64,000 nt of DNA, from the NCBI GenBank assembly GCA_934572535.1, contig CAKTLJ010000002.1, positions 76,965 to 140,964 on the forward strand, written 5' to 3'. Positions 59,856-63,617 of the stretch are shown here, piece by piece. Each line of letters begins with the position of its first letter. Position 1 is the stretch's first letter. The position numbers and the translations under genes were made by a program. The notes under the pieces were generated by a model. It saw only the letters and a list, made by a program, of their open reading frames with translations. It was not told the DNA's origin and did no database searches. Origin of the DNA: an uncultured Eubacteriales bacterium. Its GTDB lineage: Bacteria > Bacillota > Clostridia > Oscillospirales > Oscillospiraceae.

Positions 59856-59895
59856 ATTGTAGCACAGAAGACGAAAAAAGTCAAACGTATGTTCT
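59856..59895 (-). promoter_or_regulatory. lexA promoter with overlapping LexA operator
   Basis: Minus strand: TTGACT (59884-59879), 17-base spacer, TACAAT (59861-59856) preceded by TGC. The 12-mer GAACATACGTTT (59894-59883) matches the Gram-positive LexA box GAAC-n4-GTTC with one mismatch and overlaps the -35, so binding would block RNA polymerase. Confidence 0.85.
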
Positions 59896-59932
59896 AAAAA
59901 GTCCCTCGGCGGAGACCCCGCCGAGGGACTTT
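59896..59932 (-). terminator. Terminator of the rlmB/pseudo-ATPase unit
   Basis: A 12-bp perfect stem (GTCCCTCGGCGG / CCGCCGAGGGAC) with a 5-base loop; on the minus strand TTTTT follows. It lies immediately upstream of the lexA operator. Confidence 0.85.
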
Positions 59933-59947
59933 GCGGAAGAAACGCGG

Positions 59948-62602
59948 TCAGAACTGGGGCGTCCACAGGGAGATCAGCAGCACCGGCACGAACCAGAGCA
60001 GCAGGAAGAGGGACAGGTTCCAGGCGCACATGGAGCTGAGCGCCCCCGCGCTGGACAGGGTGGCGGTGAGGAAGACGCCGATGCAGGCGCTGACGTTCAC
60101 GAACCAGCTGGCCAGCTTGCCCGAGCGGCGGATGCGCTTGGCCCCGATGACGGCCTCGGCAAAGGGGGGCAGGCCCTCCTTGCACAGGACGGCGACGATG
60201 GCGTCGCTGTGGACCTGGTTGGGGCCGGACAGGGTCACGCGCCGCTGGAGGTCCGGGAAGGCGAGCTGGTCCATCGGCAGCCGCCCCCGCAGGCGGAGCC
60301 GCTGGGGGGTCAGGTTGAAGTCCCGGGTCACCAGGACGGGGTGGAGCTTGTGGGCAAAGAGGGCCCGCAGGGCGGGGATGATGTCCGGGTGCAGGTTGTA
60401 GCGCAGCACGAACATGGCGGCGATCTCGGCGTCGATGGCGCAGAAGACCGCGTCCTTGGCCCGGATGCCCTGGGGGAGGGACACGCCCTGGCGGCTCATG
60501 AAGTCGCTGTTGCCCACCAGGATCTGCTGGTTCTGGATCTGGGCCACCAGGCCGTTCTCCTGCATGATGAGCTTGTCCACCCCGATGTAGGCCCCGTGCG
60601 CCTCGTGCAGGATCCGGTCGAAGACGTAGGTCAGGCCGGAGCCGGAGGCGCGCACCGCCGAGGCGGCGAAGGAGACGGCCCGGTCCATGGTCCAGTTCCC
60701 AAAGGGGCGGGCGGTCACCATGGTCACGGTGCCGGGGGGATAGACGTCGTAGTCGCTGAGCATGGCGGCCTTGCAGCCCTTGCTGGCCAGCGCGCCCGGC
60801 CAACCGGCCAGGGCCACGCCCAGCTTGGCGAGCTTCTTGCCCAGGAGGCGCAGGGGCAGGCTGAACACCATGGAGGCCCCCAGGGTGGAGGCGGCGGTGA
60901 AGAGGGCCGACAGGGACCAGAACGCCAGCCAGGGCTGGTGATGGGCCACGGTGGTGATCATGGACAGGACGACGCAGGCCACCAGCAGCACCGGGGTCAG
61001 CCGCTGGAAGCGGAACTCCCCGTCGCTGAGGGTGCGGATGCGGCTTCCGAAGCCCTTGGGCAGGCCGATCCACTTGCGGAAGACGGACTGGTTCGTCAGC
61101 ACATTGGGGTCGTGGGTGACGACGTAGGGCTGGGCCACCGAGGCGGCGGTGCGGCAGGCCTGGCAGCGGGCCGACTGGGTGAAGTACTGGCCCATCAGGT
61201 GGAAGGTCAGCACCAGGCTGCAGGGGGCGAAGAAGGGGATGGTCTCGGTCCGCAGCTGGAAGGCCAGCAGGGAGAGGCCGTCCACCAGGGTGAAGAGGGC
61301 GGCCAGCAGGGCCAGGGTGTCCCCGTCGGGGGCCTTGTTGGTGAGCTGGACGAGCCCGTTCTTCAGCACGCTGCCGCACAGGATGGCCACCACCACGAAG
61401 AGGGCCATGCTCACGGGCAGGAAGAGGGCGGAGGGGATGAGCGCCGTCAGGGCGGCGATGGGCCCCAGGCCGCTCTCCAGGAAGGAGAGGAGCAGGAGGA
61501 CGCCGGTGACGGCGACCGAGGCGATGCACCTGCCCTTGAGGGCAGGGAGGCCCTGGCTGTACTCCAGGACCAGCTGGGCCGCCGGTGCGTCCGGGGGGAC
61601 CTCCGGCGCGGGACGGCCCTTGCGCTCCCGGCGGAGCCGGAAGCCCTCCGCCTGCGCGGCGGCCGCGCCGCCCTGGGGCTTGCTGAAGGGGGGCGTTTGG
61701 CGGGTCTTTTCCGACGAGGCGGGCTGGTCACCGCCCGGCTGGGCCTGGGCCTCGGCTTGGGGCGGCGTCTCCGGCTGGGGCTCTGCCCCGGCCTCTGCCT
61801 CTGCCCCGGCTTCCCCCTGGGGCGGCGCGTCTGGCTGCGGTTGGGCGTCCGCCTGGGGCTGTGCCTCCGCTTGCGGCTGCGCCTGGGCGGGGCCTTCGGC
61901 GGCTTGCGTCTGGGCGGGCTGTTCCGCCGGGGCTTCGGCCTGGTCGGCGGACGCCGCCTTCGGCGGCTCAGTCTGCTTGGCCGGTTGTGCCTGTTGCGTG
62001 GCCTGTGCCTGCTGGGCGGGAGCCGCCTGCTGGACGGGAGCTTCCTGCTGGACCTTCCCGGGGTCGGGGGTGAAGGTGATGAGGTCCGGCCCGTCCCCCT
62101 CGGGGACCCCGGTCTGGGCCGGAGGCGCGTCCGCAGGCTTGGGCTGCTGTGCGGGCTGTGCCTGCTTGGGCGGCTGCGGCGGTTGGGCGGGCTGTGCCTG
62201 CTTGGGCGGCTGCGGCGGTTGGGCGGGTTGCGCCTGCTTGGGCGGTTGTGCCGGTTGGGCGGGCTGCGCCTGCTTGGCAGGTTGTGCCTGCTTGGCAGGC
62301 TGCGGCGGTTGGGCGGGCTGTGCTTGCTTGGCGGGCTGCGCGGGTTGCGGCGGCTTAACGGGCTGGGCCTGCTTGGCAGGCTGCGGCGGCTGGACGGGCG
62401 GCTTGGGCTGCGGGGCAGCGGGCGGGGGCGTCACCGGTTGGGGCGCGGCGATGGTGGGCTGGACCGGGGACGTTGGAGGGGCCGGGGTCTGTGGCTCCTC
62501 CGGGGGCAGGGGGACCGAAGGCGTGGGTGTGGGGTCCGGCGGGGTGTAGTCGGCGTATTCCCACAGAATGTCCCCTAAGGTAAAGTTGTTGTCATCGGAC
62601 AT
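59948..62602 (-). CDS. Pro/Gln-rich protein with a degenerate P-type ATPase fold
   Basis: An 884-residue protein. Residues 1 to about 300 are low-complexity (Pro, Gln, Ala, Lys repeats). The rest is a polytopic membrane protein whose segment order follows heavy-metal P-type ATPases. Residues 606-630 align with the phosphorylation loop but read SDYDVYPPGT where DKTGT is expected. VGNSDFM (about 695) matches the nucleotide-domain VGN motif. LVTRDFN (about 757) replaces the TGDN motif, and SDAIVAVL (from about 798) replaces the region after GDGxND. The ATPase is therefore probably inactive. It starts 22 bases after the rlmB stop. Function unknown. Confidence 0.75.
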   Translation of the reverse strand: MSDDNNFTLGDILWEYADYTPPDPTPTPSVPLPPEEPQTPAPPTSPVQPTIAAPQPVTPPPAAPQPKPPVQPPQPAKQAQPVKPPQPAQPAKQAQPAQPPQPAKQAQPAKQAQPAQPAQPPKQAQPAQPPQPPKQAQPAQPPQPPKQAQPAQQPKPADAPPAQTGVPEGDGPDLITFTPDPGKVQQEAPVQQAAPAQQAQATQQAQPAKQTEPPKAASADQAEAPAEQPAQTQAAEGPAQAQPQAEAQPQADAQPQPDAPPQGEAGAEAEAGAEPQPETPPQAEAQAQPGGDQPASSEKTRQTPPFSKPQGGAAAAQAEGFRLRRERKGRPAPEVPPDAPAAQLVLEYSQGLPALKGRCIASVAVTGVLLLLSFLESGLGPIAALTALIPSALFLPVSMALFVVVAILCGSVLKNGLVQLTNKAPDGDTLALLAALFTLVDGLSLLAFQLRTETIPFFAPCSLVLTFHLMGQYFTQSARCQACRTAASVAQPYVVTHDPNVLTNQSVFRKWIGLPKGFGSRIRTLSDGEFRFQRLTPVLLVACVVLSMITTVAHHQPWLAFWSLSALFTAASTLGASMVFSLPLRLLGKKLAKLGVALAGWPGALASKGCKAAMLSDYDVYPPGTVTMVTARPFGNWTMDRAVSFAASAVRASGSGLTYVFDRILHEAHGAYIGVDKLIMQENGLVAQIQNQQILVGNSDFMSRQGVSLPQGIRAKDAVFCAIDAEIAAMFVLRYNLHPDIIPALRALFAHKLHPVLVTRDFNLTPQRLRLRGRLPMDQLAFPDLQRRVTLSGPNQVHSDAIVAVLCKEGLPPFAEAVIGAKRIRRSGKLASWFVNVSACIGVFLTATLSSAGALSSMCAWNLSLFLLLWFVPVLLISLWTPQF
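62151..62294. repeat. 36-bp tandem repeat in the Pro/Gln-rich domain
   Basis: Four copies with an exact 36-base period (starts at 62151, 62187, 62223 and 62259), each encoding 12 residues of the PPKQAQPAQPPQ type. Degenerate copies continue to about 62400. Copy number may vary between strains. Confidence 0.85.
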
Positions 62603-62624: not shown

Positions 62625-63407
62625 TCACAGGCGCTGGCGGACGGCTTCGTAGAGCAGGATGGCGGCGGCAGCGCTGGCGTTGAGGGAGTTGAGTTTGCCC
62701 TTCATGGGGATGCGCACCAGGAAGTCGCAGGTCTCGCTGACCAGGCGGCCCATGCCGTCGCCCTCGGAACCGATGACGATGACGGCGGGCCCCTTCAGGT
62801 CGGCCTCGTAGAGGGAGGTGGTCCCGTCGGCGGCGGTGCCGAAGATCCACAGCCCCTCCTTTTTCAGGTCCTTGAGCAGGGAGGGCAGGTTGGCCACCCG
62901 GGCCACGGGCAGGTGGGAGACCGCCCCGGCGGAGGTCTTGGCCACCACGGCGGTGAGTCCGGCGCTCCTGCGCTTGGGGATCACCACGCCGTGGGCCCCG
63001 GCGCACTCGGCGGTGCGGATGACCGCGCCCAGGTTGTGGGGGTCGGAAAGCTCGTCGCAGACCACGAGCAGGGGCGGCTCGCCCCGGTCCCGGGCAAGCT
63101 GGAGGATGTCCTCCACGGAGACGTACTCCCGCACGGAGGCCACGGCGATGACGCCCTGGTGGGCGTGGGTGCGGCTCATCTTATCCAGCTTGTTCTTGTC
63201 GGCGTCGGCCACCACGATGCCCTGCTTGCGGGCGGTGGAGGCGATATGACCCAGGGCGGCGTCCACCTCGCCCTTCATGATAAAGATCTTGTCGATGTTG
63301 GTCCCGGCCCGGAGGGCTTCGATGACCGCGTTGCGGCCCTCGATGATGCCGTCGGCCTCCTCCTGAGGTGGGCGGGCGGGACGGGGATCACTGCGTTTTT
63401 CTTTCAT
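62625..63407 (-). CDS. rlmB: TrmH-family 23S rRNA (guanosine-2'-O)-methyltransferase
   Basis: A 260-residue SPOUT methyltransferase. After a basic N-terminal tail comes the substrate-binding domain (EGRNAVIEALRAG), then the knot motifs NLGAVIRTAECAG, IVIGSEGDGM and LNASAAAAILLYE. The start at 63407 has CGGAG four bases upstream; the longer in-frame start would precede the promoter at 63481. It forms a unit with the downstream pseudo-ATPase gene. Confidence 0.94.
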   Translation of the reverse strand: MKEKRSDPRPARPPQEEADGIIEGRNAVIEALRAGTNIDKIFIMKGEVDAALGHIASTARKQGIVVADADKNKLDKMSRTHAHQGVIAVASVREYVSVEDILQLARDRGEPPLLVVCDELSDPHNLGAVIRTAECAGAHGVVIPKRRSAGLTAVVAKTSAGAVSHLPVARVANLPSLLKDLKKEGLWIFGTAADGTTSLYEADLKGPAVIVIGSEGDGMGRLVSETCDFLVRIPMKGKLNSLNASAAAAILLYEAVRQRL

Positions 63408-63480
63408 AATACTCCGATCCTGGCCGGAGAGCGGCCAAAGGAAGAATTTTGGGTAGAACTCGTCCATTTTGGACATACCG

Positions 63481-63489
63481 ATTATAGCA
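63481..63489 (-). promoter_or_regulatory. Extended -10 promoter of rlmB
   Basis: TGCTATAAT on the minus strand, 74 bases before the start; the -35 is poor. Confidence 0.6.
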
Positions 63490-63588
63490 TGGATTTGGGT
63501 CGAGCAAAAGGGGTTTTCCCGGGAAATTCCTTCCGCAGGAGAATTGCGGCCCGGCGGAAAAAGTTTTTTGAAAACTTGCAAATTGGCG

Positions 63589-63617
63589 TTGACAAATGGA
63601 GCGGGATTTGGTATCAT
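63589..63617 (+). promoter_or_regulatory. Promoter of the tRNA cluster
   Basis: TTGACA, 17-base spacer, TATCAT, ending 36 bases before tRNA-Val. A stable-RNA-type strong promoter. Confidence 0.85.

Follow-up and report, generated by a model that had tools for sequence, protein, structure and literature searches.

A P1B-ATPase-like protein family without catalytic motifs in place is encoded behind rlmB

The rlmB locus of an uncultured Eubacteriales bacterium

The DNA analysed here (the window) comprises 64,000 nucleotides (nt) of contig CAKTLJ010000002.1 from an uncultured Eubacteriales bacterium (assembly GCA_934572535.1), and carries, directly behind rlmB, a gene for a protein with the fold of the P1B-type (heavy-metal) ATPases and without their catalytic motifs in place. 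Its features are collected in Table 1, where the coordinates of rlmB are those of the longest open reading frame (ORF), the true start of which may be further in. The start codon of the pseudo-ATPase gene lies 22 nt after the rlmB stop codon, with a plausible ribosome site ahead of it. The next gene, lexA, has a sigma-70-like promoter match of its own (59884-59856), and because of this promoter-like site and of a separate terminator, which was absent from the output of a simple terminator scan, rlmB and the pseudo-ATPase gene are likely to form one transcription unit, with lexA as a neighbour only.

Table 1. Features of the pseudo-ATPase gene and its surroundings (window positions)
Feature	Residues	Position	Strand	Basis
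Complete pseudo-P1B-ATPase gene (884 aa; N-region long and disordered)		59948..62602	(-)	ORF and translation
N-terminal short motif (NNFTLGDILWEYADYT)	5-20	62543..62590	(-)	loose motif count, profile search
Disordered P/Q/A-rich tether with tandem repeats	21-334	61601..62542	(-)	predicted local distance difference test (pLDDT) mostly 28-45
Membrane helices MA, broken MB and M1-M4, with actuator remnant between M2 and M3	352-593	60824..61549	(-)	AlphaFold2 (AF2) model
Shrunken actuator-domain remnant: beta hairpin and short helix, no TGES	487-526	61025..61144	(-)	sequence and AF2 model
Cytosolic headpiece: eroded P-domain and intact N-domain fold	594-810	60173..60823	(-)	
Replaced motif I (DKTGT region to SDYDVYPPGT)	616-625	60728..60757	(-)	alignment
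Replaced motif (TGD to RDFN)	760-763	60314..60325	(-)	alignment
C-terminal part with membrane helices M5 and M6	811-884	59951..60172	(-)	sequence and AF2 model
rlmB, SpoU-family rRNA methyltransferase, upstream gene of the likely same operon		62625..63617	(-)	Pfam PF00588 and PF08032
Intrinsic terminator closing the unit		59896..59932	(-)	15-bp stem and T tract, -30.3 kcal/mol, z -6.27
Possible SOS (LexA) box AGAACATACGTTTG		59882..59895	(-)	overlaps the -35 of the promoter-like site of lexA

A P1B fold with lost motifs and newly fixed residues

A preliminary description of this DNA had recognised in the C-terminal part of the protein the layout of a heavy-metal P-type ATPase, and both profile searches and structure prediction bear this out. 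The Pfam scan of the window protein reported no family, and the NCBIfam scan gave TIGR01511 at E 2.4e-4, far short of the family cut-off. TIGR01525 was matched by 11 of 24 diverse relatives (best 4e-8), and a profile of these 24 found 15 PDB sequences at E ≤ 0.01, all of them P-type ATPases, with CopA at the top (1.3e-14). Near and distant members belong to one family (hhalign E 3.2e-98). As a control, the family profile matched none of 16 reversed true ATPases and one background ORF at E 0.0023; the matching of all 16 true ATPases is no control, since profile matches had selected them. In the AF2 model the core adopts the P1B-ATPase fold, with MA, a broken MB and M1-M6, all eight membrane helices being modelled confidently, and its structural match to CopA begins at model residue 21. 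In both sequence and model the GDGxND strand is absent ahead of M5 and M6, and so is a large share of the latter half of the P-domain. The reading of the core does not use a first full-length model, built with 22 close relatives (pLDDT 45.9).

The same description held that every catalytic signature is altered (DKTGT, TGDN and GDGxND), and this proved true of the family members examined as well. We examined 343 distinct members, drawn from the best matches listed in three protein searches and from loci L001-L065 and L122-L141; many are near-identical and Evtepia-type sequences dominate, so they are not independent. The database searches gave, with two queries, 883 and 938 matches at E ≤ 1e-3, of which the best 120 of each were used. 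DKTG is found in place in none of the 343, its single occurrence sitting in a disordered N-region, so the window gene is not a single decayed copy. The family pattern at this site is DxD[LIV][FY]PxG, with P622 in 341, D619 in 333 and D617 in 320 of 342 members, and the column of the phosphorylated Asp holds T in 164, L in 114 and D in 8 of 343 (L130-L135, L141 and P0163). In L130, D-A-K-D-L-F-P aligns gap-free with D-K-T-G-T-L-T, and its sequence looks like an intermediate between the pump and the family form. At the RDFN columns, R is present in 322, D in 339, F in 323 and N in 325 of about 341 members. Neither GDGxND nor [SN]EHP, which holds the ATP-binding His of the N-domain, occurs in any of the 343, and the column of this His is S in 305 members vs H in 17 of 17 control rows. 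TGE[SATP] is absent from the actuator position (8/343 occurrences, all preceding the core), as are CPC, CPH and SPC from M4 (5/343 elsewhere: three FFSPCAL before M2, one in the actuator remnant and one near the C-terminus). The Pfam scan found no metal-binding domain in the family protein.

The family is widespread. Genomes were sampled at four levels, of which two groups, which we take to be the Oscillospiraceae (family) and the Oscillospirales (order), are named after GTDB; the family-level sample consists of 300 genomes from the family that includes G005 (Evtepia gabavorous, placed by NCBI in Eubacteriales incertae sedis). In this sample 270 genomes match a close-relative profile at E ≤ 1e-3, all but three of them (G117, G197 and G231) at 2.2e-24 or lower. 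Of the 295 genomes of the order sample, 241 match the core profile at E ≤ 1e-25, with a single match in all but G713, and 20 of the matched loci were read at length; the family is thus present in about four of five sampled genomes of the order. In the class sample E ≤ 1e-5 is reached by 289 of 341 genomes. Only 14 of these lie at 4.8e-29 or lower, after which the values jump to 3.4e-17, and DKTGT is present in all 16 of the weaker loci that were read. The phylum sample adds none, as its five matches (5/348 at E ≤ 1e-20) were already in the order list. A missing match may reflect an incomplete genome or a copy that falls short of the threshold. Among the matches listed for family and order the reading frames are open, except one with a TGA.

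In front of the core, the repeat-rich, disordered N-terminus of about 300 residues that had been described was found again: the tether is about 310 residues long in the window protein, and the family N-region has a median of 254. Within it, GPDLIxFTPDP (residues 171-181, window positions 62060-62092) is conserved among close relatives. The tether ends in a short motif, which in loose form occurs in 311 of the 336 members whose start is usable vs 3 of 1675 shuffled N-regions, and a helix is predicted at residues 9-17 by a low-confidence model. A 15-column profile of the motif gave one strong match per genome in eight of eight genomes (E 1.5e-5 to 3.5e-4), always the family protein; this test is partly circular, as seven of the eight genomes supplied a query row, although the eighth (G167) still matched (2.0e-4). 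The next best match in these genomes had E 0.319, and the idea that other proteins there share the motif was rejected.

The bond with rlmB is steady. Each of 43 loci (40 picked for diversity plus L002, L005 and L006) has rlmB upstream and in the same orientation; a 44th, L018, has no visible rlmB, and its sequence ends early. The gap measured by longest ORF ranges from -115 to 155 nt and is within 60 nt in 33 loci, while in seven the longest ORFs overlap by 1 to 115 nt, with rlmB upstream. In a wider check of 124 loci with the family core, rlmB was found in 111, in all of them upstream and on the same strand, and in the remaining 13 the sequence ahead of the core start is no longer than 1503 bases; counted by distinct protein, rlmB adjoins in 87 of 96, and the other nine have too little DNA to tell. 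Of the two neighbours singled out beforehand, rlmB therefore stays adjacent wherever this can be checked, whereas the position beside lexA is not kept (within 130 nt in 3/42 loci, downstream in 5/42). Since the pair is kept down to roughly 20% identity while the flanks change, these results point to selection on rlmB and the pseudo-ATPase gene as a pair.

Possible roles of the pseudo-ATPase

Compared with the P1B copper ATPases (CopA, PDB 3rfu/4bbj; ATP7B; HMA4), the family shares the fold, the extra N-terminal helix pair, M1-M6 and the N-domain, and differs as follows: (i) DKTGT, GDGxND and SEHP are missing, as are TGES and CPC in place; (ii) the actuator domain is reduced to a hairpin and the P-domain is partly gone; (iii) a long N-terminal tether with a new end motif is present. 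Among the results listed by full-text searches of openly licensed papers, aimed at inactive P-type ATPases or at rlmB in the order, there was nothing on the family. One member, P0142, bears the precomputed Pfam label PF28211.1, which the Pfam scan run here did not report, and part of the sequence may thus already belong to a more recent Pfam entry. The closest published case found is the degenerate P4-ATPase domain of Plasmodium GC-beta, which is eukaryotic, of the P4 type and fused to guanylate cyclases, and not an order-wide bacterial family (PMC6592433).

We favour, with moderate confidence, a P1B-type ATPase that lost its catalytic parts and has been retained, under new constraints peculiar to it, in the role of a membrane scaffold or receptor; this agrees with the preliminary description, which had suggested a non-pumping scaffold, sensor or carrier. 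Of the 217 columns of the cytosolic headpiece 42 reach 3.5 bits, vs 17 of 276 columns elsewhere in the named segments. In the membrane helices no Cys or His is conserved, none reaching 2.8 bits. Both findings incline towards a scaffold or receptor rather than a metal carrier. For a protein that has lost catalysis and bears a docking-type motif on a long tether, such a role at the membrane is the most economical one. The eight membrane helices would hold the headpiece, that is, the N-domain and the stripped P-domain, at the membrane; the tether would extend into the cytosol and end in a short helix docking on a partner; and the close spacing of the genes would tie production to that of RlmB. 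The protein presumably does not pump, and the N-terminal motif probably binds a partner. Judging from the adjacency to rlmB, this partner might have its place in ribosome maturation or translation, with RlmB or something close to it as the candidate. A more specific version has the N-terminal helix catch RlmB, or the 50S precursor on which RlmB acts, so that late rRNA methylation is kept at the membrane, possibly under the control of a ligand bound by the headpiece that once bound ATP; this is a tentative and rather unlikely proposal.

Several observations weigh against the scaffold or receptor. The region means of conservation overlap, with M6 (2.66 bits) level with part of the P-domain (2.58), and some polar residues of the membrane segments are conserved (R358, S411, T429, S565, S572 and N862). 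D617 and D619 are conserved by the old active site, so some chemistry may persist there, and a loose G[DE]Gx[ND] pattern, counted irrespective of position, occurs in 9 of 343 members. The loose N-terminal motif is missing from 25 of 336 members (by eye about 11 are near variants and several seem truncated), and L122-L124 lack the N-region altogether while retaining core and rlmB, so the tether is dispensable in some members. Fold and gene order alone do not demonstrate a function.

Pseudoenzymes often regulate active paralogues, and the protein could in principle be a pseudo-subunit regulating a true P1B-ATPase of the same cell, for instance through mixed dimers or metal sensing. A true heavy-metal P-type ATPase above the family cut-off is indeed present in 39 of 39 examined genomes with the family; however, 14 of 14 control genomes match one too (13 above the cut-off), so this co-occurrence is uninformative, and the invariable place behind rlmB and the loss of the CPC metal motif from M4 make us regard such a regulator as unlikely. 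We hold a new membrane-bound enzyme, with DxD in place of DKTGT and RDFN forming an HAD-like phosphatase or phosphotransferase site, to be quite unlikely. DxD is the general HAD motif I, D617 and D619 are nearly fixed and P622 and D761 all but fixed, and D-x-D precedes [LIVF][FY]P in 317 of 343 members. Nevertheless, this DxD stands one residue off in the alignment, the aligned nucleophile column before D617 being mostly T, L, Q, S or K, and it is lost in divergent members of the order (DAKDLFP in L130, DASLLFP in L133, HATDLFP in L129); GDGxND is missing throughout, and after RDFN, in the region of HAD motifs III and IV, the AF2 model shows just two helices and a single strand.

An envelope or cell-division anchor, its adjacency to rlmB reflecting expression only, seems very doubtful. 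ZipA and FtsK-type proteins likewise join a membrane part to a long, flexible P/Q-rich linker with a binding end, much as the P/Q-rich linker of about 300 residues here lies between a short predicted helix and the membrane core; to our knowledge, however, they have no fold or neighbours in common with the family, and among the recurrent neighbours, which were named by few queries and by eye only, none was recognised as a division gene. A carrier or channel working without ATP is very unlikely: the confidently modelled P1B membrane helices and their conserved polar residues would suit it, but strongly conserved columns are fewer there than in the headpiece, and the acidic residues of at least 2.8 bits (D428, E529 and E816) lie at segment ends. 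Finally, the lost motifs might have meant a decayed pump gene or an annotation artefact, a reading already contradicted by one open copy in most genomes of the order, by the new near-invariant motifs and by ratios of nonsynonymous to synonymous polymorphism (pN/pS) below 1 (four pairs gave 0.23 to 0.60 for the core, and three pairs 0.22 to 0.39 for rlmB).

The defining feature of P-type ATPases is a phosphorylated Asp. A family in which the architecture persists, the catalytic parts are lost and new residues have become fixed in their place is a clean test case for roles of the pump fold that do not involve pumping, and its steady link to rlmB is a testable lead on a connection between membrane and ribosome in little-studied gut bacteria.

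Other neighbouring genes

Across the 42 loci compared, an EF-G-family GTPase lies downstream on the same strand in 19 (EF-G domains were confirmed by Pfam in L055:4684-6744), a putative ftsH, named by eye, lies divergently upstream in 11, and a putative metK, also by eye, upstream in 7. In L163:1-1986 and L164:1480-3462 an EF-G-like GTPase ends in a fused NYN domain of the YacP/Rae1 type (PF05991). The pseudo-ATPase as a simple stand-in for yacP/rae1 was rejected because PF05991 is matched in 21 of 39 genomes, with frames of 855-1405 aa in 20 of the 21.

lexA was likewise rejected as a functional partner, given its inconstant position and the separate terminator and promoter-like site. The possible LexA box in front of it has one mismatch to the consensus, and, as 0.72 such sites are expected by chance per window, it is the position of the candidate that carries weight.
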